In this document: positions 2,469 through 24,661 of the stretch, in pieces
Position numbering within the stretch: the first letter of the stretch is position 1
How the letters are laid out: every line of letters starts with the position of its first letter
Made by a program: the position numbers and the translations under genes
Notes under the pieces: generated by a model
The model's database searches: none
Seen by the model: the letters and a program-made list of their open reading frames with translations, nothing else
What the model was told of the DNA's origin: nothing
Assembly: GCA_030429345.1 (NCBI GenBank)
Contig: JAUIFJ010000040.1
Coordinates: 1 to 25,485 of the forward strand
Origin: a bacterium
GTDB lineage: Bacteria > CAIWAD01
DNA length: 25,485 nt
Direction of reading: 5' to 3'

Positions 2469-2699
2469 ATGAGATTCACGCGCACTGTAACCGGCCTGGT
2501 GCCGCAGAAGGAGAAAATGTCTGAGACGGTTCTCAATGGCCTGGGCAGTTATGAAGGACTGCGACCCGTCAACAAAGTCTCGGAGGAGCTGCACAATCTG
2601 ATCAAGTGCTGCATTCCCATGCCAGATGAAGACCTCTTTAAAGGTGAGAAGATGGTCAAGCGGCGGGTTCGCATCACCATCGAGGTTGAAAATGAATAA
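2469..2699 (+). CDS. Small hypothetical protein
   Basis: 76 residues, preceded by an AGGAAAG ribosome site. The middle (NKVSEELHNLIKCCIPMP) is probably helical and the end (KRRVRITIEVENE) a beta strand. No recognised motif. It is the last gene before base composition turns AT-rich. Confidence 0.55.
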   Translation: MRFTRTVTGLVPQKEKMSETVLNGLGSYEGLRPVNKVSEELHNLIKCCIPMPDEDLFKGEKMVKRRVRITIEVENE

Positions 2700-2889
2700 G
2701 AGTCGTTCTAGAAATCCCCGCATCAGATCTCCTGCTATCGCAATACTTATCAGTGGGTTAGGACAAGTATGCCCGGCTCAAAAGTGCGGTAAGAAACAGT
2801 GATGAATTTTCCTCAACATTTTTCCCATGGATTTGATTGTTCTTGGAAACGAAAGAAGAATGAATGTCTTTAGCCATAGGAGGTACCAA

Positions 2890-3051
2890 ATGAATTCGCC
2901 CCCAAATACGAATGAGCCCAGTACATCGGTCAGCATCACAGAGAAGGGCAATCTTCGTGTCGACTTTGACAAACTCAAAGAATCTTCTAACTACAAGAAG
3001 ATTTTAGAGGAAACTCGCAAAGTTGTAATACGTGAGAGTAAGCCCAAGTGA
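2890..3051 (+). CDS. Small protein at the head of an AT-richer two-gene cassette
   Basis: 53 residues. The start is set by a near-perfect AGGAGGT at 2878-2884, 5 bp before ATG 2890; an in-frame ATG at 2827 has no such site. The N-terminal third is Asn/Ser/Pro/Thr-rich and disordered, followed by VSITEKGNLRVDFDKL and a charged helix. The stop overlaps the start of the membrane protein downstream (GTGA), so the two are translated together. Function unknown. Base composition is clearly AT-richer than the flanking genes. Confidence 0.6.
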   Translation: MNSPPNTNEPSTSVSITEKGNLRVDFDKLKESSNYKKILEETRKVVIRESKPK

Positions 3052-3809
3052 CATGGCTGCTATTACTATTTCTTGTTCCTGGATATATCGTATCACGCCA
3101 TCACCTTCCAGTAAAGTTTATAGCACGCCAAGAGACCGGACACACTCAATATTTTCGAATTGTAGAAATATCATTACGCCTTTTCCTAATTAACTCAGCC
3201 ATCCTGTATCTGGCTTCAGTCACACCGGGATTTGGCTGGGCAATTGAGAAACTGATTGATTTTCTCAACTCACTGCCAATACTTCGTGAGATGATTCCAG
3301 AAGCAAGGCAAGATTCATTCGGATATTTGTCGCTGAATTTCTTGTTATCATACTGTTACGCGTATGACATGAAATACAGTGCTTCTAGGGCCGATCGAAA
3401 TACAACAGTTAAGCACTATGAAAGCGCACTTGAGGACAATGAGTTTGAGAATTTACTCCTCCAGGCCGCAAAAAGGGGACTTCCAGTCAGCATTACCCTT
3501 AAGAATGACAAGACCTACATTGGATTAGTGCAGCGAACTAACTTCCACAGCGTTGAAAGGAAGCACCTTGCACTACTCCCGCTATTGAGTGGATATCGAG
3601 ACCCGGAGAAAAAGACACTGGAGCTAACCACTAGATATACAGATATTTATGACAGACTTTCATGCATGAAAGAGCCGGATGTGTCAGAGAAGGATTTCAA
3701 GATGGTGTTTGCAATTGACGAGATCGTGAATGCCAATCTGTTTAGCCTACGAGTCTACAATATGCTGCATAGTGGCGGGCAGAGTACTGATGGAAAGTCC
3801 GCTTCATAG
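3048..3809 (+). CDS. Membrane-anchored protein of unknown function (DUF6338-like N-terminus?)
   Basis: 253 residues with a GTG start overlapping the upstream stop. Residues 2-16 are a hydrophobic start (TWLLLLFLVPGYIVS), a second hydrophobic segment lies at about 43-64, and a third possible one at 90-105. The rest is soluble and charged, with a beta-rich stretch GLPVSITLKNDKTYIGLV at about 142-159. The hydrophobic LVPGYIV start followed by a small strand-rich cytosolic domain reminds me of the DUF6338 group, but this is recall only. It is followed directly by an intrinsic terminator. The AT-rich composition and isolated transcription-unit look suggest independently acquired cargo. Confidence 0.65.
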   Translation: MTWLLLLFLVPGYIVSRHHLPVKFIARQETGHTQYFRIVEISLRLFLINSAILYLASVTPGFGWAIEKLIDFLNSLPILREMIPEARQDSFGYLSLNFLLSYCYAYDMKYSASRADRNTTVKHYESALEDNEFENLLLQAAKRGLPVSITLKNDKTYIGLVQRTNFHSVERKHLALLPLLSGYRDPEKKTLELTTRYTDIYDRLSCMKEPDVSEKDFKMVFAIDEIVNANLFSLRVYNMLHSGGQSTDGKSAS

Positions 3810-3824
3810 TCTTCGTGTAACAAT

Positions 3825-3876
3825 AGGATAAAGCTTATCCTCACACACAAAGAGCAGCTTCGGCTGCTCTTTTTTT
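3825..3876 (+). terminator. Intrinsic terminator with UUCG tetraloop, preceded by a second hairpin
   Basis: AGAGCAGC (3851-3858), loop TTCG, GCTGCTCT (3863-3870) form a perfect 8-bp stem followed by an unbroken T-run to 3876: a textbook Rho-independent terminator with a very stable tetraloop. Just upstream AGGATAA (3825-3831), loop AGC, TTATCCT (3835-3841) form another perfect hairpin. It lies just after the AT-rich membrane-protein gene and ends that transcription unit. Confidence 0.9.
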
Positions 3877-5052: not shown

Positions 5053-5397
5053 ATGCAGAACCAGCTGAAGAACCCGAAGAAACTGAAGCGCCTTTACCGC
5101 CAGGCAGGCCAGCAGGGTGTGCGGATCATTGACCAGAAGGGCAAGCCAATTTCCCTGCGCGAGCTGATGGCCAGGCAGCGGGGCCGGCGGCCGGTGATCC
5201 GCGGTGGTCATAGCTACCCGGGGCACATGAAGGCCCTGCCGAACGAGCTGCTGCCCCCGAAGGTCCAGCTGCTGGTGGAGCAGGGAGCCAGGCTCCGTGA
5301 CCAGCATGGTCAGGGAATGGTGAGTCGGAACTCTCCGTGTCCGTGTGGCACGGGACTCAGGTTTAAGCGCTGCTGCATGACCGGGCTGAAGCGATGA
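5053..5397 (+). CDS. SEC-C motif protein
   Basis: 114 residues. ATG 5053 is preferred over GTG 5041 because GGAG at 5043-5046 lies 6 bp in front of it, whereas nothing suitable precedes the GTG. The C-terminus carries a clear SEC-C zinc motif, SRNSPCPCGTGLRFKRCC (C-x-C-x8-C-C), as at the end of SecA and many small proteins. The N-terminal part is basic and helical (MQNQLKNPKKLKRLYRQ). The motif binds zinc and usually serves contact with protein or nucleic acid; the role here is unknown. The stop overlaps the methyltransferase start (ATGA). Confidence 0.7.
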   Translation: MQNQLKNPKKLKRLYRQAGQQGVRIIDQKGKPISLRELMARQRGRRPVIRGGHSYPGHMKALPNELLPPKVQLLVEQGARLRDQHGQGMVSRNSPCPCGTGLRFKRCCMTGLKR

Positions 5398-6311
5398 GCA
5401 ATCTCAAGGCAATTGACCTGTTCGCCGGCGCCGGTGGATTCAGTGAAGGTGCTCGAATGGCCGGTGTCGAGGTCGTCTGGGCAGCCAACCACTGGCCGGC
5501 AGCCGTCGAGGCGCACCAGGCCAACCACCCGACGACCGAGCACAGTTGCCAGGACCTGCATCAGGCAGACTGGACCCAGGTCCCCGCGCATGACCTGCTG
5601 CTGGCCAGCCCCGCCTGCCAGGGACACAGCCGAGCCAGGGGCAAGGACAGGCCGCATCATGACGCCACACGGTCGACCGCCTGGGCTGTCGTATCCGCAG
5701 CCGAGTGCCACCGGCCGCCGGTCCTGCTGGTCGAGAATGTCCCCGAGTTCGCGAAGTGGCAGCTGTTCCCGGCATGGCGCCAGGCACTGGAAGCCCTGGG
5801 CTACAGCCTGATGCCCATGGTCGTCGACGCCGCGGATCACGGGGTGCCCCAGCATCGGCGCCGGCTCTTCATCGTCGGCACACCCAGTCGCTCACCGCTG
5901 AGTCTCAACCTGCCCAGCCGGAAGCACACAGCGGCCGCCACGATAGTGAACTTGTCTGGGGGTGACTGGTCCCCGGTTCGTCGCACAGGTCGCGCCGCAG
6001 CCACGCTCGCGCGCATTTCCCGCGGTCGACGCGATCACGGCCCGCGATTCCTTATCGGTTACTATGGGAATGAGCGCGGTGGACGAAGCCTCGAGCGCCC
6101 TATCGGCACACTGACTACCAGGGACCGCTGGGCCATCGTCGACGGTGACCGGATGCGGATGCTCCTTCCCGACGAAGTGCGCGCTGGAATGGGATTCCCC
6201 GAAGGCTACCAGCTGCCGGCCAACCGCAGACTCGCTGTGCACTTGCTGGGAAATGCCGTGTGCCCGCCCGTGGCGGCTGATATGATCCGGGCGATCAGGA
6301 AAGCGGTATGA
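5394..6311 (+). CDS. Orphan DNA (cytosine-5) methyltransferase
   Basis: 305 residues with the C5-MTase motifs in order: motif I IDLFAGAGGFSEG at 7-19, catalytic motif IV ASPACQGHS (Cys nucleophile; the common form is PPCQ), motif VI LLVENVPEF, motif VIII QHRRRLFIVG, and motif X LLGNAVCPPVA near the C-terminus. The enzyme moves a methyl group from AdoMet to C5 of cytosine. The target-recognition region between VIII and IX is short (about 60-90 residues), so this is a compact enzyme. No restriction gene is adjacent, so it probably protects phage DNA or marks regulatory sites. ATGA overlaps at both ends place it inside the long operon. Confidence 0.92.
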   Translation: MSNLKAIDLFAGAGGFSEGARMAGVEVVWAANHWPAAVEAHQANHPTTEHSCQDLHQADWTQVPAHDLLLASPACQGHSRARGKDRPHHDATRSTAWAVVSAAECHRPPVLLVENVPEFAKWQLFPAWRQALEALGYSLMPMVVDAADHGVPQHRRRLFIVGTPSRSPLSLNLPSRKHTAAATIVNLSGGDWSPVRRTGRAAATLARISRGRRDHGPRFLIGYYGNERGGRSLERPIGTLTTRDRWAIVDGDRMRMLLPDEVRAGMGFPEGYQLPANRRLAVHLLGNAVCPPVAADMIRAIRKAV

Positions 6312-11987: not shown

Positions 11988-12307
11988 ATCACAAAATCGA
12001 ACTCAGCACGGAGACGCTACGGCTATGCAAGAATGCTTGCCGTAGACGGGCGGTTCAGGTTCGTGAACTGGGGGCCAATACTCTTGCCGATGTGTATAAG
12101 TCAGCCGCCGACGAAATCGACGCCCTCCTCAACCTACGAGCAAAAGAAACGTGCTGTGATCGCCCCAGCCTCGATACCCAGTGCATTACAGCCGGGACTG
12201 TGAGTGCCTGTAAAAGCTGTGGGAAAGTACACGGCATTTGTGCGCACTACGTCATACACGGGAAGGTCGTCCATGTGGAACACAACACATCTGAGGTAGC
12301 GAGATGA
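11984..12307 (+). CDS. Small Cys-containing hypothetical protein
   Basis: 107 residues, ATGA-coupled at both ends. The N-terminal 50 residues form a helical pair (LRLCKNACRRRAVQVRELG, ADVYKSAADEIDALLNL). The C-terminal half has CCDRP, C-x2-CGKVHGIC and H residues, consistent with a zinc-binding turn. No family recognised. Confidence 0.55.
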   Translation: MNHKIELSTETLRLCKNACRRRAVQVRELGANTLADVYKSAADEIDALLNLRAKETCCDRPSLDTQCITAGTVSACKSCGKVHGICAHYVIHGKVVHVEHNTSEVAR

Positions 12308-12744
12308 GCAAGATTTTCAAGAACGATTCCCTGCTGCCGTGTCCGCACTGTGGATCAGAGAGGATGCTTGGGGATGATGCCGGGAATCCAACAGATATCC
12401 CTGCATCGTGGTTCGTACTGTGCTGTGACCGGGAGCTTCCATGTGGTGCATGTTGGCCCTGGGCGGACACGAAGAAAAAGGCCATCGGAATCGCCAACCG
12501 GGGATGTTGGCGCGACATCAAGCAAGACGGTTATCCCAGGCAGAATGGCGAGCTGCAAGAATTCATCGTCCAGTTGTGCGAAGGCACGATCGTTGTCGCC
12601 CAGTTCTACCCAGAGCAGCAGGGTGACACGTTCTCCCATTGGGGGTACTGCGGGAAGAAAGGCTCACACATTCTCTACGACTACGGTGAAGATGCCGTGG
12701 CCTGGATGCCCCTGCCGCCGGTTGTCAAGAAAGTGACCAAGTGA
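12304..12744 (+). CDS. Zinc-finger plus DUF551-like protein
   Basis: 146 residues with two parts. The N-terminus LLPCPHCGSERM with Cys residues at about 39-50 (CCDRELPCGAC) looks like the Lar/restriction-alleviation type zinc finger common in phages and prophages. The C-terminus (VVAQFYPEQQGDTFSHWGYCG ... AVAWMPLPP) carries the end motif of DUF551 proteins, V-T-HW-MPLP. In Rac-like prophages Lar modulates type I restriction, but only its zinc knuckle is shared here. A fused domain order like this is common in phage early genes. Function inferred only. Confidence 0.65.
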   Translation: MSKIFKNDSLLPCPHCGSERMLGDDAGNPTDIPASWFVLCCDRELPCGACWPWADTKKKAIGIANRGCWRDIKQDGYPRQNGELQEFIVQLCEGTIVVAQFYPEQQGDTFSHWGYCGKKGSHILYDYGEDAVAWMPLPPVVKKVTK

Positions 12745-15361: not shown

Positions 15362-15437
15362 AAGGAACGAAATGCCGGGAAAGGCTCGGCGTGTAGACCA
15401 TGACACACAACCATATCCCCGAAGGAGTAACAGCATC

Positions 15438-15815
15438 ATGAGTTGGAGAAATGAAATCGTCAAAGGCCTGGAGCGAAAATCGCTGTCTGCCCGCGCCCTG
15501 GCCAGGGGTGCCGGGCTGTCGACAAGTACCGTGCACGACATGCTGAACAAGCCGGGCTTCAGCCCCCAGATCAGCAGCCTGGAAGCCGTGTTCGAACAGC
15601 TGGATATCCGCATGTGCTACGAATCCGGACCCGATGTCCACACGGCCATGCAGACGTTCCTGGACGGGCGCGGCTGGACCGACGAGCTTTCGGCCAGGGA
15701 GTATTTGGCCATCGCCGCCTTCCTTTCCGAGACCGGCGTGGAGAACGGGCTGAAGGTCCTGCACATGATCACCGGGGTGGAGAAGCTGCGGACCTTCATC
15801 GCCAGCATGCATTGA
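15438..15815 (+). CDS. XRE-type HTH protein
   Basis: 125 residues from ATG 15438 with AAGGAG about 10 bp upstream; an in-frame ATG at 15372 also has a GAAGGA site and would add 22 residues. Residues about 15-60 form the HTH: SLSARALARGAGLSTSTVHDM, LNKPGFSPQISSLEAVFEQLD. The C-terminal 60 residues are helical (TDELSAREYLAIAAFLSETG, LKVLHMITGVEKLRTFI), possibly for dimerisation. A phage-type repressor or antirepressor is likely. Confidence 0.7.
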   Translation: MSWRNEIVKGLERKSLSARALARGAGLSTSTVHDMLNKPGFSPQISSLEAVFEQLDIRMCYESGPDVHTAMQTFLDGRGWTDELSAREYLAIAAFLSETGVENGLKVLHMITGVEKLRTFIASMH

Positions 15816-16464: not shown

Positions 16465-16670
16465 AGTGGATTCAGCCCAGGGGCAGCCGGTTTGTCCACC
16501 TGTTCCACGGCCAGCGGGTCGGCCGGTTTGACCGCGGGGCCTGCGGCACCCTCTTCTGGCTGCGCAGCTGGCTGCCCGTGCGGCCGACTGAGCCTGTCAC
16601 ACCAGTATGCCCAGCATGCGCAGCCAGCACCAAGGAGGCGGCCGACGATCAGGCGTCCCCGCCACAGTAG
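16461..16670 (+). CDS. Small basic protein with a CPAC knuckle
   Basis: 69 residues, ATGA-coupled. It begins KWIQPRGSRFVHLFHGQRVGR, then a GACGTLFWLRSWL segment and CPACAAS near residue 50. With the earlier Cys it may form an incomplete zinc ribbon. This kind of short protein (FH-x2-G ... CG ... C-x2-C) recurs in phage genomes, but I cannot name a family. Confidence 0.5.
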   Translation: MKWIQPRGSRFVHLFHGQRVGRFDRGACGTLFWLRSWLPVRPTEPVTPVCPACAASTKEAADDQASPPQ

Positions 16671-16920
16671 ACAGGGGCTGGCAAACCCGCCGCCTGCCCA
16701 AGAAACCGTGCCTTCCCCCCGCGAATCCCCAGGTCCCCCGGACAGGATCGATGTCCGTACCCATGTTCCGCGCCGGTTTACGGCCCGTATGGCCCTTTCG
16801 TCCGCCCCTGGTCCCTGGCTATCCGGTCCGCCGTCCAGCTTTGTTAGCACACCCAGATCGCAGCTGGTGAATAATCCGCCATCCATTTGCTGCCCTGGCT
16901 ATCCCTTTTCGGAGACCCCT
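16671..16920. other. 250-bp gap without a convincing gene
   Basis: C-rich DNA before the ATG of the next gene. Two + frames stay open through it (16607-16870, and an upstream extension of the next gene), but both read as Pro/Arg/Ser-rich, gene-like only in length, and lack a good start. No clear terminator or promoter is visible. It separates the small-protein operon from the HTH cluster and may hold the promoter for that cluster. Confidence 0.4.
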
Positions 16921-17427
16921 ATGCACGATGACCAAAAGATGCAAGCGCAACCAGGGCCAGAAGCCCTTATGGGCTGTGCAATCCGCCTGTGGTACCAACG
17001 CAGGCCCTGCGGCTGGACCGAAGACCAGCACCTGGCAAATCCCGCGGTCAACACCCAGAACCAGGCAGAAAAGCAGCTGGCGAATACCGTGGCCAATTGG
17101 ATTCGCAATCAGCAGCCTGATCCCCGCCCGGGCCTGGATCTAAGCCACCTGGTCGAACGGGCGGCCACATCTGTAGTTCCGGCCGTCTGCACCGCCCGGA
17201 CTGTTCTCGAAGCCCTGCGGATTGCGCTAGGCCTCACAGTCCCCGAGTTGGCAGCCCGTCTGGGCCTCCGGCGCCGAAGTCTCAACCGCTGGTGCGCAGG
17301 ACACGCAAAACCCATTGGCCAGGCACGCCACGTGCTCAACGGCTTCCTCGCAGACCATGGGCTGGGCATGGTTTACCCATTGCAGAAAAATGAAACACGG
17401 CCGGCTGGCCGAAGGAGCAAGAAGTGA
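16921..17427 (+). CDS. HTH protein with a paralogous N-terminal RP-x-GW domain
   Basis: 168 residues from ATG 16921 with GGAGA before it; the frame stays open for 143 codons upstream, but that reads as shadow. Residues about 16-65 (IRLWYQRRPCGWTEDQHLAN then VNTQNQAEKQLANTVANWI) match the next gene's protein. The C-terminal half is an HTH: LEALRIALGLTVPELAARLG, LRRRSLNRWCAGH. The N-terminal module is unnamed. GTGA coupling to the next gene, with AAGGAG. Confidence 0.65.
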   Translation: MHDDQKMQAQPGPEALMGCAIRLWYQRRPCGWTEDQHLANPAVNTQNQAEKQLANTVANWIRNQQPDPRPGLDLSHLVERAATSVVPAVCTARTVLEALRIALGLTVPELAARLGLRRRSLNRWCAGHAKPIGQARHVLNGFLADHGLGMVYPLQKNETRPAGRRSKK

Positions 17428-17723
17428 ATGACACTACGAACAGAGGGATCACAGACCCACAAATCAATGGAGTGAACACCATGTCCACAGTTGAAAATTC
17501 TGAATCGGCCGGGCAAAAGACACACACTGTCCAGGAAGCAGTTCTCTGCGCCGCCTACAAATGGTGGGAGGAGCTGCGGCCCCCAGGCTGGTCCATCCAG
17601 CAGCACTTGCAGCACCCGACGGTCAACACGACGAACGTATGGCAGCACTTCCTGGCAACCTCGGTCGCCCAGTGGGTTGCTGAAGACGCAGATTTTTCTG
17701 CCGGCGAGGAGGCATCAACATGA
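17424..17723 (+). CDS. Paralogue of the RP-x-GW domain, without HTH
   Basis: 99 residues from GTG 17424 (AAGGAG ahead, GTGA overlap); ATG 17481 with GGAG is a second candidate start. Residues about 38-90 (AVLCAAYKWWEELRPPGWSI, QHLQHPTVNTTNVWQHFLAT, VAQWV) align with the previous protein's N-terminal domain: shared RP-x-GW-x-x-x-QHL-x-x-P-x-VNT-x-N and LA-x-x-VA-x-W. It seems to be the stand-alone version of that domain. Role unknown; its fixed place between HTH genes suggests a partner or decoy. Confidence 0.6.
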   Translation: MNDTTNRGITDPQINGVNTMSTVENSESAGQKTHTVQEAVLCAAYKWWEELRPPGWSIQQHLQHPTVNTTNVWQHFLATSVAQWVAEDADFSAGEEAST

Positions 17724-18427
17724 GCACCCATATCAGCAACGACGATCTGCTGCAGGAGCTTCTGGAGCAACGGATTGCCCGCCTGCACGACTTCATTCAA
17801 GTTGGCCTGCCGTGCATAAAAGCTGCCAACGGTCTGCAGGCCGGACACGTTCAACTCTTGCTGCCAATGACAAATCCCAAAAAGTATGGCGCGCCGAACG
17901 AGATTGGAGATCTGATCGATAAAATCGAAGACCTGGCGGATCTTGTGATGATCATGAAAGAGCAGATCCAGCAGGTGGCGAAGGCCGGGCAGTGTGTTTC
18001 AAAACACATCACACCCCGCATGCAGATGGATCCGCGCACCCTTCAATTGATTGCCAATTCAGACTTTCAGGCAGACATGAAAGCGGTCAACTTGCAGGCG
18101 GCAAAGCACATGGTTTGCCGGGCCATCGCAAGCACAACCACCTGGATTACAGGAAAACGATTTGCCAGGGAAGCGGGGGTCCCGCGATCGTGTGTTATTC
18201 GCTGGCGACGGGGGCAAAATCTGTCTTGCGCCAAAACCCGCAGAACCATCATGCTGGCGCTGATCCACCTCTATAGACTGCGTAATCTGGACATCCACAC
18301 CATCACCGATTGGCCCTCATACTTCAGCGTCGAATGCCGAGCCGTGCTCTGCGCCTTGCCGCCCGAACTAGCCCCAACGGTCCAAATGGAACACGAAAGC
18401 AGCCCAACCAGAGGAGCAATGAAATGA
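17720..18427 (+). CDS. HTH-containing protein with helical N-terminus
   Basis: 235 residues, ATGA-coupled at both ends. Residues 1-90 are helical (DDLLQELLEQRIARLHDF, IGDLIDKIEDLADLVMIMKE). At about 140-190 an HTH-like segment reads ITGKRFAREAGVPRSCVIRW, then RRGQNLSCAKTRRTI. The C-terminus is a helix and a disordered tail. A DNA-binding role is inferred from the HTH; the match is moderate. Confidence 0.6.
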   Translation: MSTHISNDDLLQELLEQRIARLHDFIQVGLPCIKAANGLQAGHVQLLLPMTNPKKYGAPNEIGDLIDKIEDLADLVMIMKEQIQQVAKAGQCVSKHITPRMQMDPRTLQLIANSDFQADMKAVNLQAAKHMVCRAIASTTTWITGKRFAREAGVPRSCVIRWRRGQNLSCAKTRRTIMLALIHLYRLRNLDIHTITDWPSYFSVECRAVLCALPPELAPTVQMEHESSPTRGAMK

Positions 18428-19002
18428 ACAACGACAACGGAAAGATCATCCGCATGGACCCTGCACAACAGACCGCTGATCTAGCTGCCCAGCTGCAGCA
18501 GATGCAAGAACAGTTCGACGAGAAATGGGGGGTCATGGTCGACCAGGTCCGGCAGCTGGAACGGGATCAGAAGCAGTTGCAGCCCCAGGTGGAACGGCTG
18601 CACGACCAGCTGGTAGATACTCGCCGCCGGGTCACCGACCTGGAAACCGGGCAGAAACCGCTGCTGGCACCCCTGCAGTCCACGCCTCGTCGACCGTCCG
18701 GTGTTCCCGGCCCTAGGGGAAAAGGAAGGCCATACAAGAACCGGGGATTCGAAAACGAAATCCTGGACTCCCCACTCCTCGATCGATTGCAGAATGCTAT
18801 GGGCAGAACAGGCGTGAACGCCACCGAGCTGGCTGCCGTGCTCGGGGTTTCGCGCGGGGCAGCCAACAAATGGAGGCGGAGGCTGTCCGAGCCCAAAGGC
18901 CAGAACCTTGAGCGATTGATCGATTGGATTGTCCGCGTGGAGTCCGCATCCGATGAAATGATTCACACGATTAGACGAGAAGCACAGGCGGCCAAGGGCT
19001 AG
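18424..19002 (+). CDS. Coiled-coil HTH protein
   Basis: 192 residues from ATG 18424 in the ATGA overlap. Residues about 14-80 are a strong coiled coil (AAQLQQMQEQFDEKWG, VRQLERDQKQLQPQVERL). A Pro/Arg linker follows. Residues about 118-175 are an HTH: SPLLDRLQNAMGRTGVNATE, LAAVLGVSRGAANKWRRRL, then a closing helix. The overall design, coil then the same type of HTH, mirrors the protein at 1094-1891. It is the last gene before the large repeat-rich gap and a good candidate for a protein that binds those repeats. Confidence 0.7.
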   Translation: MNNDNGKIIRMDPAQQTADLAAQLQQMQEQFDEKWGVMVDQVRQLERDQKQLQPQVERLHDQLVDTRRRVTDLETGQKPLLAPLQSTPRRPSGVPGPRGKGRPYKNRGFENEILDSPLLDRLQNAMGRTGVNATELAAVLGVSRGAANKWRRRLSEPKGQNLERLIDWIVRVESASDEMIHTIRREAQAAKG

Positions 19003-19013
19003 GAAATCGGAGC

Positions 19014-19205
19014 GGCTAAGTGGATATATTTTTTTCTGAAAAACGCGATTCAATGCACATGCGGGGCCTAATTATGGTCCCTTAGACAATTATGGCGCAA
19101 AATTCGCCATAGCCAAATTGTCAATTCTGACGCTACTGGGGCCAATATTAGGCACTGCCTGTGCACCGTTTGAACGTTTTCAGAAAAAAATATATCCACT
19201 TAGCC
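19014..19205. repeat. 192-bp imperfect palindrome with 29-bp perfect arms
   Basis: The arms 19014-19042 and 19177-19205 are perfect reverse complements for 29 bp (starting GGCTAAGTGGATATA and containing a run of seven T). Further in, TGCACA (19054-19059) pairs with TGTGCA (19160-19165) and GCCTAAT (19066-19072) with ATTAGGC (19147-19153); all three pairs share the same centre (19109.5), so the whole element folds on one axis. Near the centre sits a nested hairpin: GACAATT ATGGCG (19085-19097) against CGCCAT and AATTGTC (19105-19122). Such size fits a cruciform origin, a MITE-like insertion or a non-coding RNA hairpin. Confidence 0.85.
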
Positions 19206-19407
19206 ACAAATATTGCGGGGAAATTTCTTTGCAAACCATTAAGAAACAATCGAGTGTCCATAAATATTGCTTTTATACGTTTCTGGGTGTAAGAACCCCA
19301 TGGACTCTCTCTCTCATGAGAAAACGTCCAGAAAAAACCGGCCATAAAAACACCCGAATTATCTCATTTTTAAGAGAGAGTGTAAATGTGGACGCACTTA
19401 TGGACAC
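19204..19407. repeat. Direct 13-bp repeat and 10-bp inverted repeat
   Basis: CCACAAATATTGC (19204-19216) and CCATAAATATTGC (19258-19270) are direct repeats identical at 12 of 13 positions, 54 bp apart. GTGTCCATAA (19254-19263) is the perfect reverse complement of TTATGGACAC (19398-19407). The repeats partly overlap each other and the right palindrome arm, as expected for protein-binding clusters (iterons or operators). Confidence 0.65.
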
Positions 19408-19535
19408 ACCGTTGAAAACAGGGAGAGAGAGAAAACTGCTGCCCTTATAGGGTAGATCGCGAGAAAAATGGCCACTCGGCAATTTGAGCAGACATGGCAA
19501 AATAGTGGGCGATAACCTGCTATCCAGTCTGACAA

Positions 19536-19607
19536 GTCGAAGCGGCTTCGACAAGGGGGAATGGACGTGTCCCCGGCGAAGCCGGACTACCGCGGGCGAA
19601 GCCCGTG
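19536..19607. repeat. Three consecutive small hairpins, two with GCGAAGC cores
   Basis: First, 19536-19552: an 8-nt inverted repeat, GTCGAAGC and GCTTCGAC around one G, able to fold as a 7-bp stem with a 3-nt loop. Second, 19573-19585: CCGGC GAA GCCGG. Third, 19593-19605: CGGGC GAA GCCCG, extendable to 19591-19607. The last two contain GCGAAGC, known as an exceptionally stable single-stranded DNA mini-hairpin. No T-run follows, so they are not terminators. The first hairpin shares the CGAAG element. Confidence 0.7.
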
Positions 19608-19700
19608 CATCTTCTGGCCAATCGCTCCTCTTTCCCCACGGCGCAGCGCGCGGCGCGCGCACCACGACCGACGAACTGAAACAGAACGAAAGGACCAACC

Positions 19701-21062
19701 ATGTCACAGACCCAGACCCTGCAGCTGCCCAAGACACAGATGCTGGAGCCACTGCTGCCGAAGGGATACACACACCACAGGGAGTTCCATTCCCATTCGT
19801 CCATCGACCTCTTCTGCCACTGCCCACAGGCCTACAAGGCACGCTACATCGACCCCAAGCTGGGGATCGAACACCAGGTGGTCGAGAACCCCACGGGACC
19901 CCTGCCCCTGGGAACCCTGCTGCACCGGTGCCTGGAACTCACCACCCAGGAACTGTGGGCCGGCGGACACTCAGGCAGGGTGGTCAAGGAAGCACACCTG
20001 TACTATGACATGCTGAACCAGGCCTTTGCTGAAGACCCTGCTGCAGGTGCCCCCGTCCTGACAGAGGCACAGGAGATCCTGAAACACTGGCTGCCCACCG
20101 AGCTGGTGGACGCCCAATCCATCCGTGGACTCGAATGGCCTTTTCAGCTGATCCTGGAAGACCTGGAAGGCGATGTAGGGATCCGAGGCTACATCGATCG
20201 GCTGGAACACCGGGGCGATGACACCGTCCGCATCGTGGACTACAAGTCCAGCAGACTGCTCTTCACACACGACGAGCTGAGGAGGTCCAGGCAGGCAAGC
20301 ATCTATGAGCTGGCCGTCCGGGACAGCACGGTCCTCAACGTCCATCCCGAGACCCCGGTGGACATCGAGTTCGTGATGCTACGCCACCCCGGAATCAACC
20401 AGCGAACCACCCGCAGTCCCGAGCAGCTGAACCAGGCTTTCACCGAAATCGTCGGCCTGGTCCGCAAGATCGAGTCCACCAGGGAATTCAGGCCACAGCT
20501 GAACAAGAACTGCGCGTACTGCGAACACCGGCACGCCTGCCCGCTGTGGCGTCAGATCATCGATCAGGGCCTGCCACAGGCGCAAATAGACCCCATGGAC
20601 GTCACGGCCGTGGCAGAGGAATACGAGCGGATGAACAACGCAGCAAAAATCCTTTACCGCAGAAAGGAAGAGCTGGGGGACGTGATGCGCACCCACCTCA
20701 TCGGCCAGGACCACATCCAGACCCGGAATCACATTTACCGGCTGTCCAAGACAACGGAGACCGAGTTCTTGGATCCACACCGCGTGATCCAGATCTTTGC
20801 CAAGGCGTTCAAGCAGCCCCAGGCACGGATCATGGCACGCATCGGTGCCATCCGCAAAGGCGAGTACGACACGCTGATGAAAGCCCTGGGCGGCCGGCTC
20901 GACCTGCAGGAACTGGCGAAGGTGAAGGCGGAGATGAAGACCCTGATGATCCAGAACCCGGCGCCCAAGCTGCAGGCGTACAAGGCTTCGGTGCCTGAAT
21001 CACGCCCGGCAGGCAAGGTCAAGCGTGATCGACACACAAGATCATCACGGGGTCAGATCTAG
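19701..21062 (+). CDS. RecB/Cas4/AddB-like PD-(D/E)XK nuclease with Fe-S cluster motif
   Basis: 453 residues. All expected motifs are visible: HSSIDLFCHCPQAYKARYI (first cluster Cys) at about 31-49, GTLLH (motif with His) at about 71-75, IRGYIDRLE (Asp) and VRIVDYKSSR (D-x-K) around 160-185, RQASIYELAV (Q-x3-Y RecB motif) at about 200, and CAYCEHRHACPLW (C-x2-C-x5-C, the rest of the cluster) at about 273-285. The C-terminal 150 residues are helical with a basic tail. Enzymes of this group are DNA exonucleases used in recombination, repair or CRISPR adaptation. AAAGGA precedes the ATG. It stands after the repeat region as the first gene of a new transcription unit. Confidence 0.85.
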   Translation: MSQTQTLQLPKTQMLEPLLPKGYTHHREFHSHSSIDLFCHCPQAYKARYIDPKLGIEHQVVENPTGPLPLGTLLHRCLELTTQELWAGGHSGRVVKEAHLYYDMLNQAFAEDPAAGAPVLTEAQEILKHWLPTELVDAQSIRGLEWPFQLILEDLEGDVGIRGYIDRLEHRGDDTVRIVDYKSSRLLFTHDELRRSRQASIYELAVRDSTVLNVHPETPVDIEFVMLRHPGINQRTTRSPEQLNQAFTEIVGLVRKIESTREFRPQLNKNCAYCEHRHACPLWRQIIDQGLPQAQIDPMDVTAVAEEYERMNNAAKILYRRKEELGDVMRTHLIGQDHIQTRNHIYRLSKTTETEFLDPHRVIQIFAKAFKQPQARIMARIGAIRKGEYDTLMKALGGRLDLQELAKVKAEMKTLMIQNPAPKLQAYKASVPESRPAGKVKRDRHTRSSRGQI

Positions 21063-21227: not shown

Positions 21228-21320
21228 ATGGCCAGAATCAACAGCGTGAGACCCCGCCCGCGGCCCAAAACTTTCGCGCCGCGCCGCAGGCGCCTTGGCC
21301 ATCCGCAGAAGGAGTGGTGA
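21228..21320 (+). CDS. Tiny basic open frame (30 codons), tentative
   Basis: ATG 21228 follows AGGCGGTGA and reads MARINSVRPRPRPKTF with a Pro/Arg-rich tail ending GHPQKEW; its TGA overlaps the next start (TGATG at 21318-21322). The stop-start overlap fits the local style, but the length gives little statistical support. If translated it would be a very basic peptide. Confidence 0.3.
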   Translation: MARINSVRPRPRPKTFAPRRRRLGHPQKEW

Positions 21321-21985
21321 TGAAGAGGCAGGACGGGGCATTGAATCCTGCGCGCCGGCGGGCCCTGCCGGCCCCTGGGCGCGTCTGCGGCGTACCCTTG
21401 GGCAGTGGTGGGACGTGCCAGCGGCCGTCCGCCGATGGCCGGCCTTGCGCGGACCACGGGGGAAAGAGGGATCCGGACCCGCCGGCAGGACTACCCGACG
21501 GCTTCAAGGTCCACAAGGTGTTCAAGAAGGAGGACCGGCAGGCCGAGCTTGAGCGCTACGTCGAGCGCATCATGGTGGAGTACGGGTTGAACCAGTCGGC
21601 TGACCTGCGGCAGGTCCTGCTGTCCGGCATCGCCTACGTCCGCCTGCTCTTCGACGGCCCTACCTTGGAGCCCAAGGACCTGGACTACCTGAGCCGCGTT
21701 GTCGACCGCCACCTGCGGAACCTGCGGGCCACGCCGAAGGAGCAGCAGGAAGCCAGGTCGACGGGCGATCGGGACAGTAGCCTTCCAGGACCCGCGGGCC
21801 TGCAGGCTGCAGCGATCCTGGAGCGCGTGCGCGTCTCCCTTTCCCCTGGACAGCTGCAGGCCCTGGCCGGCGGAACAGGCGCCCAGGCCAAGGCGCCTGA
21901 AGCAGGCGAAGTCGAGGTAGAAGACCCGGAGTTCCCGGCGCCACGCCGGGCGGAACCAGACGACGAAGAGGACCTGTTCGACTGA
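21320..21985 (+). CDS. Zinc-motif protein, possible phage small terminase subunit
   Basis: 221 residues from ATG 21320 with AAGGAG at 21309-21314; two GTG codons just before are less well placed. Residues about 23-48 hold C-x10-C-x10-C-x2-HGG (RVCGVPLGSGGTC, then PCADHGG), the zinc knuckle seen at the N-terminus of many phage small-terminase-like proteins. A helical middle follows (ELERYVERIMVEYGLNQSAD, LRQVLLSGIAYVRLLFDG, DYLSRVVDRHLRNLRATP). The acidic C-terminus ends DDEEDLFD. No large terminase gene follows, so the assignment is tentative; a general phage DNA-binding protein is the alternative. Confidence 0.55.
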   Translation: MKRQDGALNPARRRALPAPGRVCGVPLGSGGTCQRPSADGRPCADHGGKRDPDPPAGLPDGFKVHKVFKKEDRQAELERYVERIMVEYGLNQSADLRQVLLSGIAYVRLLFDGPTLEPKDLDYLSRVVDRHLRNLRATPKEQQEARSTGDRDSSLPGPAGLQAAAILERVRVSLSPGQLQALAGGTGAQAKAPEAGEVEVEDPEFPAPRRAEPDDEEDLFD

Positions 21986-22426
21986 GATCCGCTGAGATCT
22001 TCTGATTTTCCGGGAATCGTGTCCGAGAAATCGCAGAATTCAGAAAATTGCTCTACTGTTTCTTAGTGAATTGCCTTTTCTGGCGAATGCCGCCAAAGCT
22101 AAACTTGTCCTAGAATCCCCATTCCCGGACTAGAATTAGGGGCGGCGAAGTCTAGGCTGTAGAGCGATTGGGCTGCCTGGTAGTGCTGATCCGCTTCTGC
22201 TGCGATGCGCGCGCCGCGCGCCCTGGGGACAGGGGGGGGGTGGTTGCTGGGAAAGCTCGAGTGGGTAGGCGGTCTCCACGGCGGAAAGGGGTCCTTTCCC
22301 GCACGAGGGGGTCGGATGAAAGTTTCAGCCCATGTCCGAGAATCTTAGATTCTGGACCTATTCCGCCGCTCTTTTCAGGGTGCTCAAGCCGCTGTGAGAC
22401 TCAAGGAATTGGCAGGGATCTCACCA
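21986..22426. promoter_or_regulatory. Non-coding region before the restriction-modification operon, two hairpins
   Basis: About 440 bp without a believable gene; the + frame open here is a shadow of the downstream gene. It includes a nine-G run (22231-22239) and CTAGAAT direct repeats near 22111 and 22131. One hairpin at 22281-22302 is GGAAAGG, loop GGT, CCTTTCC with two more pairs. Another at 22334-22357 is GTCC, bulged G, AGAATC, loop TTA, GATTCT, GGAC. The second lies 70 bp before the operon start and may be an operator or attenuator. No controller (C) gene is seen, so control may rest on these or on the methyltransferase. Confidence 0.45.
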
Positions 22427-22864
22427 TTGGATACTCTCAGCAAGACCGATCGATCAATTCGCATGTCTCACATCCGGGGCAAGGACACGAAGCCCGAGCT
22501 GCTTGTTCGTTCCCTGATTCATCGCATGGGTTATCGATTCCGTCTGCATGGCAGGGGGCTTCCAGGAAAGCCGGACATCGTGTTTCCAGCCAGAAGCAAG
22601 GTGATCTTCGTTCATGGCTGCTTTTGGCATCGCCACGCAGGATGCCCCCAGTCAAGGACTCCCAAGACGAACGTGGAGTTTTGGACTCGCAAGTTCGAGA
22701 CGAATGTGTCGCGAGATCGACGGGTCGAGAACGACTTGAAGGAAAAGGGGTGGGACGTGTTGGCGATTTGGGAATGCGAGCTGGCTCACATGGAAGACAT
22801 GAAGTACAGGATTCAAGCATTCCTGGATGGATCTCGAAATGGGGGTGGGAATGAAGTCCGTTGA
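22427..22864 (+). CDS. vsr: Very short patch repair endonuclease Vsr
   Basis: 145 residues from TTG 22427 (AGGGA before it, and homologues begin around this DTLSK...RS-x-x-MS-x-IRGKDT point); GTG 22394 gives 156 residues. Family blocks present: IRMSHIRGKDTKPE, GYRFRLHGRGLPGKPDIVF (catalytic Asp), VIFVHGCFWHRHAGC, FWTRKFETNVSRDRR and GWDVLAIWECEL. Vsr nicks the T strand at T:G mismatches formed when 5-methylcytosine deaminates, so it goes with C5-methyltransferases. Overlaps the methyltransferase gene by 14 bp. Confidence 0.93.
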   Translation: MDTLSKTDRSIRMSHIRGKDTKPELLVRSLIHRMGYRFRLHGRGLPGKPDIVFPARSKVIFVHGCFWHRHAGCPQSRTPKTNVEFWTRKFETNVSRDRRVENDLKEKGWDVLAIWECELAHMEDMKYRIQAFLDGSRNGGGNEVR

Positions 22865-24062
22865 GTTGTTCGCAGGTGCCGGAGGACTTGGTCTGGGCCT
22901 GTCGATGGTTGGATTTCATCCAGAAATGGTAGTTGAATGGGACAAGTGGTGTTGTGACACGATAAACATCAATCAAGAACGGGGACATCCCCTGGTTCGA
23001 GATTGGCGCGTGATACGCGGCGACGTGAGGGATGTCGGATTCGAGCGCCTGCATGGAAAAGTGGACCTGGTATCCGGAGGCCCGCCTTGTCAGCCTTTTT
23101 CCTTGGGTGGGAAGCATCGAGCATTCGATGATGAACGGGACATGTGGCCAGCTTCGGCGGAGATCGTTCGTGAGTTGGCACCTCGCGCCTTTCTGTTCGA
23201 GAATGTGAAGGGTATCACCCGCGCTTCCTTCATTAACTATTTCCAGTACGTGCAACTCAGGCTATCCTATCCCGAAGTGCGGCCCAGGAAGAGCGAGGAT
23301 TGGCTGGATCACCTGAAGCGCCTGGAGCGTCACAAGACACGTGGAAGACATCGTGGCTTGTGGTACAGGGTGATTGCTCGTGTCTTGAACGCCGCGGATC
23401 ATGGTGTTCCTCAGAGAAGGGAGCGCGTCTTCATCGTGGGGTTCAGAAGTGATCAGAAACAGGGCTGGTCATTTCCTTCTCCCACGCATTCCCTGGATCG
23501 GTTGCTTTGGGATCAATGGGTGACGGGCGAGTATTGGGAACGACATCGAATCTCCAAGCGCCGCCGCCCAGACACACCAGGTAGGTTCGGCACGAGGGTG
23601 CGCAAACTGACTCGGGAGAGGGAGTTGGGGCCGCCCACTGAAAAGCCCTGGAAGACGATCCGGGATGCATTCCGAGGACTTCCCGATCCCCGGAGAAAAA
23701 GAGTCGATGTCCAGTTTCTGAATCACGGTTTCCAAGATGGTGCTCGAGTGTACCCTGGGCATTCAGGTAGTCCGATGGACCTGCCGGCCAAGACATTGAA
23801 AGCGGGCGATCACGGCGTCCCTGGTGGCGAGAACATGTTGATCGAGTTGAATGGCTCGGTTCGGTATTTCAGCGTCCGGGAGTCCGCCAGGCTGCAGACT
23901 TTTCCGGATGGATATGAATTGCACGGCTCTTGGACCGAATCGATGCGTCAGCTTGGGAACGCTGTTCCAGTTCGACTTGCCAAGGTGGTTGGGGCTTCCC
24001 TTGCCCGGCAATTGATCCTGAGTGAATCCGAGATCTTGTCCAAGGAAAGGGCTGGACGTTGA
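22851..24062 (+). CDS. DNA (cytosine-5) methyltransferase of a type II system
   Basis: 403 residues from ATG 22851 (in-frame ATGs at 22827 and 22839 are also possible; the conserved start is VELFAGAGGLGLG). Motifs: I VELFAGAGGLG, IV GGPPCQPFSLGG (catalytic Cys), VI FLFENVKGI, VIII HGVPQRRERVFIVG, IX RESARLQTFPDGYEL, X RQLGNAVPVRLAKVV. A long target-recognition stretch of about 150 residues lies between VIII and IX. It methylates the host's own sites so that the adjoining nuclease does not cut them. Coupled by overlap to the genes on both sides. Confidence 0.95.
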   Translation: MKSVELFAGAGGLGLGLSMVGFHPEMVVEWDKWCCDTININQERGHPLVRDWRVIRGDVRDVGFERLHGKVDLVSGGPPCQPFSLGGKHRAFDDERDMWPASAEIVRELAPRAFLFENVKGITRASFINYFQYVQLRLSYPEVRPRKSEDWLDHLKRLERHKTRGRHRGLWYRVIARVLNAADHGVPQRRERVFIVGFRSDQKQGWSFPSPTHSLDRLLWDQWVTGEYWERHRISKRRRPDTPGRFGTRVRKLTRERELGPPTEKPWKTIRDAFRGLPDPRRKRVDVQFLNHGFQDGARVYPGHSGSPMDLPAKTLKAGDHGVPGGENMLIELNGSVRYFSVRESARLQTFPDGYELHGSWTESMRQLGNAVPVRLAKVVGASLARQLILSESEILSKERAGR

Positions 24063-24661
24063 GCGACCAGTACAATCCACTCGACAAGGGCAACCTGGCG
24101 GAGAGCGTCGTGCGCGCGATCCTGGAAAAAGAGGCGGAACCGCTCGGGGGACTCGCCAAGTTCCAGGGGGCAGGTGTATACGCCATTTACTACTCGGGAG
24201 GGCTAGAGCTCTACAAGCGGATTCGATGCTCCACACCTGTTCCTGCGGCTGGGGTGCCCGTCTATGTTGGAAAGGCTGTTCCCGATGGTGCCCGGAAAGG
24301 AGTAAAGGGACTCGAAAAGAAGCCGGGGAATTCGCTATTCAAGCGGCTTTCGGATCACGCGAAGAGCGTCGACGCCGCCGTGGATCTTGAACTGGGAGAC
24401 TTCTGGTGCCGTCATCTGGTCGTGGACGACATATGGATCCCCTTGGGCGAGGCGCTGCTCATCGCCCGGTTCACTCCTGTTTGGAACACGATCGTGGATG
24501 GTTTTGGCAATCACAATCCTGGAAAGGGCAGGCGCGAGGGATTGCGTCCTCGTTGGGACACGTTGCATCCAGGCAGGGATTGGGCCACCAAGTTCAAGGA
24601 GAGGCCTGAATCCAGGGAGACGATCGCCAATGAGGTCAGGATGGAATTGGAAGGCTCCTAG
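24059..24661 (+). CDS. Eco29kI-like GIY-YIG type II restriction endonuclease
   Basis: 200 residues from a TTG start overlapping the methyltransferase stop (TTGA), with GGAAAGGG upstream. The N-terminus YNPLDKGNLAESVVRAIL and FQGAGVYAIYYSG ... VPVYVGKAVPDGARKG give the GIY-YIG type core (VYA-x-YY, then VYVGK). LFKRLSDHAKS, DFWCRHLVVDDIWIPLGEAL, FTPVWNTIVDGFGNHNPG and WDTLHPGRDWA are the segments I associate with the Eco29kI family. Eco29kI itself cuts CCGCGG; whether this enzyme does is inferred. Full length and intact. The TTG start may keep its level below that of the methyltransferase. Confidence 0.88.
   Translation: MSDQYNPLDKGNLAESVVRAILEKEAEPLGGLAKFQGAGVYAIYYSGGLELYKRIRCSTPVPAAGVPVYVGKAVPDGARKGVKGLEKKPGNSLFKRLSDHAKSVDAAVDLELGDFWCRHLVVDDIWIPLGEALLIARFTPVWNTIVDGFGNHNPGKGRREGLRPRWDTLHPGRDWATKFKERPESRETIANEVRMELEGS

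Follow-up and report, generated by a model that had tools for sequence, protein, structure and literature searches.

The window, that is, the whole 25,485-nt stretch of DNA analysed here, is a prophage fragment and corresponds to the complete contig C26, one of the 92 contigs that make up a 4.24-Mb genome. The same genome contains C43 and C57, two collinear but modular copies about 90% identical to it, as well as a 4-kb piece, C24, which may be the continuation of C57, since the nuclease is cut off at residue 344 in C57 and picks up at residue 368 in C24; with further copies in this genome sought by search only, the window has two or more relatives at about that identity there. Outside the genome, four copies were found in the sister genus G001 and one, V55, in IMG/VR, the latter being the one close relative returned by the search of viral contigs, and no further relatives were found among the genome contigs searched. 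Two skeleton patterns run against the viral contigs recovered V55 again and one other contig, L067 (the 303-kb IMG/VR contig IMGVR_UViG_3300037042_006844), which at positions 1376-1393 contains GCCCAATGGCTGCCAAAA, part of the second dyad described below, in a single exact copy.

The prophage gene content includes a primase, two helicases and a RuvC-like domain. The fullest prophage copy, C100 from G001, carries helicases (one with the RuvC-like domain), a primase and an SbcC-like protein upstream, and these early genes are followed by a helix-turn-helix (HTH) gene, a non-coding gap, an exonuclease gene and genes coding for a conserved 222-aa protein, an integrase, a GpA-like terminase and a portal protein; by this gene order, the gap lies where the early module gives way to the late one. 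In all eight loci of this family of tailed-phage prophages, a gap of 556-729 bp separates the gene coding for the coiled-coil HTH protein from the one coding for the Cas4-like exonuclease, and in each of the eight the gap is rich in dyads.

The gap of the window (19003-19700) contains the 192-bp palindrome reported in the initial annotation (19014-19205, no strand assigned), which was confirmed, with perfect 29-bp arms at 19014-19042 (+ strand) and 19177-19205 (− strand), complementary at 29/29 positions and separated by 134 nt. When the gap is shuffled with its dinucleotide composition preserved, perfect inverted repeats reach at most 12 bp, versus 29 bp in the real sequence. The nested inner pairs and the central hairpin are both present in the predicted fold, with the inner TTATGG/CCATA sites and the hairpin occupying 19072-19112 (no strand assigned, sequence and fold), and the gap minus its last 130 bp folds with z-scores of −10.0 and −8.2 on the two strands relative to shuffles. 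This palindrome is the window's version of the dyad array, hereafter array I, of the other copies. Among the repeats noted earlier, the six TGGAC sites and the GA/CT tracts are there (the latter seen both in the sequence and in k-mer counts), while the 13-bp direct repeat (19204-19216 and 19258-19270) is present with an identity of 12/13. A second dyad region, CAATCGAGTGTCCATAA / TTATGGACACACCGTTG (82%), was recognised from sequence and fold at 19247-19414 (no strand assigned) and encloses TGGAC sites, GA/CT tracts and an AT-rich stretch; the CT tract lies at 19305-19315 and the GA tract at 19420-19434, both read on the + strand. The sequence CCATAA occurs five times in this gap and not once in the other six gaps compared, and from these counts only the window's own motif looks like TTATGG; TGGAC forms an equally dense cluster elsewhere, inside the nuclease gene.

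The gap ends with the leader of the nuclease gene (19569-19700, + strand), which is 88-98% conserved in C43 and C57 and contains two GAA-loop hairpins (CCGGCGAAGCCGG, CGGGCGAAGCCCG) at 19578-19607, a pair kept in all three copies of this genome; GAA-loop hairpins occur in four of the five other copies too. The gene itself (19701-21062, + strand) codes, according to profile matches, for a PDDEXK_1/Cas4-like exonuclease with 97-98% identity among the three copies within the genome. The closest exonuclease among named phages is that of the Gordonia phages Orchid/GTE7, with which the Cas4 family is shared at an identity of only 24-26%.

The four HTH proteins said to be encoded just upstream of the gap were found only roughly so: those at 16607-17427 and 18424-19002 are above the HTH_3 cutoff, whereas those at 15372-15815 and 17720-18427 match weakly. 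The gene adjoining the gap (18424-19002, + strand) codes for a 192-aa protein with a coiled coil and an XRE/Cro-C1-type HTH (HTH_3, E 6.5e-05), the HTH class of phage repressors, and it matches the phage transcriptional repressor phrog_2328 with an E-value of 6.3e-08. The profile searches gave only HTH_3/XRE-type matches for it and none to RepA_N or other initiator families, and no match was found among named phages. A homologue was modelled as a long helix plus an HTH (pLDDT 85); in the AlphaFold model of the protein from C56, a long helix (4-88) precedes the HTH, and the helix at 131-138 holds the co-varying residue discussed below. We infer that the 18424-19002 protein is the reader of the dyad array.

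C43 and C57 align with the window up to 17429/17430 and again from 19569, and between these points only a short 75% match is found, at 18289-18369. The last HTH genes and the gap (17431-19568, + strand), with no close DNA match to C43/C57 and with conserved flanks on both sides, are therefore an exchanged cassette. C43 and C57 lack the 192-bp palindrome and carry other dyads in the equivalent position, as do the G001 copies and V55, so that the palindrome is private to the window; in the two co-resident copies, which keep the flanking genes, the block is not simply absent, its place being taken by another dyad-rich gap next to an HTH gene of its own. The palindrome is a single copy in the genome and not found at many unrelated loci, the 25-bp core of its arms has no exact match in the genome or the viral contigs, and no similar DNA was found in phages or plasmids.

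Array I starts about 45 bp past the HTH stop codon in most copies, and its motifs are copy-specific and mirror-symmetric, with matching offsets from the stop codon, most clearly so in C43, C57, C58 and C56. The sites (offset and orientation, with the centre marked by a slash) are GAACA at 50−, 61−, 69− / 116+, 124+, 135+ in C43, GGACA at five of these six positions in C57, GGTCG at 48+, 53−, 61− / 107+, 115+, 120− in C58, and GGCGGGA at 42+, 55−, 65− / 111+, 121+, 134− in C56; the arrays of C8 and C100 are less regular and the full six-site pattern was not seen there. The gap of C100 has no perfect inverted repeat longer than 11 bp, a length no greater than chance, yet it folds better than chance (z −10.9). 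After array I comes a second, larger dyad around an AT-rich stretch and with other motifs, namely AACGCCC in C43/C57 and CTGCCCG in G001. There are seven to eight AACGCCC sites in both orientations within L025:8670-9398 and L027:1033-1761, in the second dyad of C43/C57. The HTH_3 protein at 16607-17427 was rejected as a reader of AACGCCC, its recognition helix being the same in all three copies and the motif being absent from the window.

The motifs were chosen by eye and from k-mer counts, and the counts alone are no test; their clustering was compared across sequences most of which are partial, with only C100 covering most of a prophage. The repeated sites are clustered in the one non-coding region beside the HTH gene, which codes for the candidate initiator, most clearly in V55 (GGCCGGA five times in 150 bp in the gap, next best two), C58 (TGGTCG six versus two), C43 (GAACA six versus three) and C57 (GGACA five versus three), whereas the GGNTCA motif of C100 has an equally dense cluster outside the gap (four and four).

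Comparison of the sequences of two close pairs of copies shows that the sites and the HTH recognition helix have changed together. The gaps of C56 and V55 differ at 59 of 574 positions, and all six sites have changed from GGCGGGA to GGCCGGA at the same base, one of them with an additional change; the numbers of changed sites per motif column (0,0,0,6,0,1,0) were matched in 0 of 200,000 permutations with random placements. Between C43 and C57, six of six sites have likewise changed at one base, GAACA to GGACA (1,6,0,0,0 per column, matched in 124 of 200,000 permutations), and the two GAACA matches outside array I are unchanged. These figures weaken if palindrome arms are copied onto each other, since the six sites would then be non-independent: counted on one arm they become 1416/200,000 for C56/V55 and 10958/200,000 for C43/C57, which would leave the significance of C56/V55 modest. 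Within each pair the HTH region is nearly identical with few differing residues, and both pairs differ at one shared position of the recognition helix, R to G in one and Q to R in the other. This position aligns with Val33 of the P22 c2 repressor, which we take to be a base-contacting residue. Covariation of protein and site specificity is thus found in two independent pairs; for the window's own array, which is without a close relative, the link between sites and protein would hold by analogy.

As to replication, the GC skew turns within about 2 kb of the gap, the minimum falling about 1.1-1.4 kb downstream of it, where the nuclease gene has its 3′ end, so the palindrome is not singled out. 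The cumulative minimum lies at the end of this gene in five of five loci tested, the window and C43 being taken after detrending; in V55 this holds for the raw minimum only, since the proximity of the contig start to the gap displaces the detrended one. In C100 the skew is negative across nearly all early genes and mostly positive across late genes on the same coding strand. Such a turn fits a nearby origin but also a mere border between gene modules, which could itself produce the change. The near-DnaA box (TTAGCCACA, 19200-19208) exists, but with 14 one-mismatch boxes found in the window versus 8.6 expected it carries little weight. A DnaA-dependent oriC-type origin was rejected, as there is no exact box in the gap and one-mismatch boxes are only mildly enriched window-wide.

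The gap is a special DNA locus and no accident. The earlier reading of it as a replication or master-control locus stands in part, in that its architecture recurs in eight of eight loci, is linked with the HTH gene beside it and lies near the skew turn, replication being the inferred part. The locus is probably a phage replication origin or a comparable "self-recognition" site. The explanation that we favour, with confidence that goes about halfway and on sequence grounds, is a cassette of a co-evolving HTH protein and dyad array that most likely serves as a phage replication origin. The HTH protein would bind array I, its N-terminal coiled coil would bridge the mirrored half-arrays, and the complex would remodel the AT-rich second dyad, where phage DNA replication would initiate with the phage-encoded primase and helicases loaded at the gap. 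With private sites, several nearly identical prophages could share a cell, in the manner of iteron incompatibility groups. Somewhat more tentatively, this may be an undescribed self-identity module of phages, in which the helix of a coiled-coil XRE protein and a mirrored private array co-evolve, can be swapped together, define the origin and avoid cross-talk.

Lambdoid phages have a type-specific binding protein, O, beside or within an origin consisting of repeated sites (iterons) and an AT-rich stretch. Such a protein at the locus, repeated sites and an AT-rich stretch are seen here as well; the differences are that the gap comes after the HTH gene and not inside it, that there is no O-family match and that the palindromes are much larger. 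With the operators of P22 c2 and 434 the locus shares the Cro/C1-type HTH fold and the co-varying residue at Val33, whereas here the HTH is C-terminal behind a long coiled coil and many sites form one array downstream of the gene. In the PLE satellites of the Vibrio phage ICP1, the DNA-binding domain of the RepA_N initiator and the neighbouring non-coding iterons covary and are swappable, and only cognate pairs work (PMC8263062). The likeness is that a DNA-binding domain and adjacent non-coding sites covary as a module; here, a small coiled-coil XRE protein without RepA_N is paired with 5-7 bp motifs in mirrored arrays inside large dyads, at what would be an origin. Co-varying initiators and iterons are accordingly already known; the protein here matches no initiator family.

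The main rival to the origin is a late-gene operator, in which the HTH protein would act as a repressor or activator looping the mirrored sites and switching the exonuclease-late operon, the diversity of sites reflecting immunity groups. This is possible, though we consider it doubtful. The HTH fold and the best family matches are those of phage repressors, the gap is directly upstream of the nuclease and the late genes, and immunity systems predict divergence of sites between co-resident prophages. However, the gap clusters of V55, C58, C43 and C57 stand well above any other in the available sequence, whereas a lysogeny repressor should have operators at early promoters too, and two large dyad regions across more than 500 bp exceed the needs of an operator; the promoter scan, uninformative for an unknown phylum, gave no convincing match.

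It is unlikely that the gap is a packaging (pac/cos) site read by a small-terminase-like protein, even though it adjoins the packaging module (portal and GpA-like terminase, the latter a weak match) and the HTH protein has weak profile matches to terminase small subunits (E 0.02-0.09), because the domain order is reversed, with the coiled coil first and the HTH last, and the terminase large subunit is about 11 kb off in C100. Moreover, the conserved gene at 21314-21985 is a better-placed small-subunit candidate, though without a family match. Its 223-aa product has a Cys/His-containing N-terminus (C..C..H) and a helical body, matched no family and gave a low-confidence structure model; by position it is a possible terminase small subunit.

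Slightly less probable still is a partition/centromere or anchoring site with the coiled-coil HTH protein as an adaptor: such proteins as RacA are among the weak matches and incompatibility would fit private sites, but the prophage proteins searched included no recognisable ParA-like ATPase and the elements carry integrases. It is improbable that the gap is transcribed into a large structured non-coding RNA. Such an RNA would fit the folding of seven copies, with z-scores from about −6 to −18; both strands, however, fold about equally, and consensus folding is no better on the sense strand. When the helices of one copy were read in its nearest relative in six comparisons, G-U/C-A substitutions were 12/16, 11/11, 8/6, 7/6 and 8/7, with a C-A excess in one (8/21), and thus without a sense-strand signature. 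No Rfam family reached the gathering threshold and no match below it was credible, the low-threshold ones being mostly microRNA-hairpin models fitting the palindromes. A ROOL/GOLLD-like RNA was rejected on the same grounds, lacking strand-specific G-U covariation and an Rfam match, and the strand tests favour DNA dyads over RNA. A MITE-like insertion or an assembly artefact, which a long perfect inverted repeat within an AT-rich gap might bring to mind, is refuted, since the palindrome occurs once in the genome and its position is conserved, seven other loci having equivalent dyads there.

The locus may show how close prophages diversify their "identity" and so live together in polylysogens. 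It may also be an origin type for which no initiator family is recognised, in a bacterial phylum that has been sampled poorly (five genomes). It is uncommon for a clean natural pair to differ by a joint change of one helix position and of one base in all six sites, and C56/V55 and C43/C57 present a directly testable protein-DNA specificity code.

The window also carries features of note away from the gap. At 2699-3840 lies an insert low in GC (~0.44) that holds a phrog_3630 gene of unknown function; the site looks like an insertion hotspot because C57 has a different insert of about 1.1 kb there and C43 almost none. The DNA methyltransferase of the early region (5394-6311) and a Lar-like restriction-alleviation protein (12304-12744; phrog_599, E 2e-05) together make up anti-restriction cargo. 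At 22394-24661, in the interval from the conserved 223-aa gene to the end of the contig, are genes coding for a Vsr endonuclease, a C5-cytosine methyltransferase and an Eco29kI-type restriction enzyme; the cargo at the equivalent place, beside the integrase on the opposite strand, is a methyltransferase in C100 and a PDC-S32-like protein in C43.
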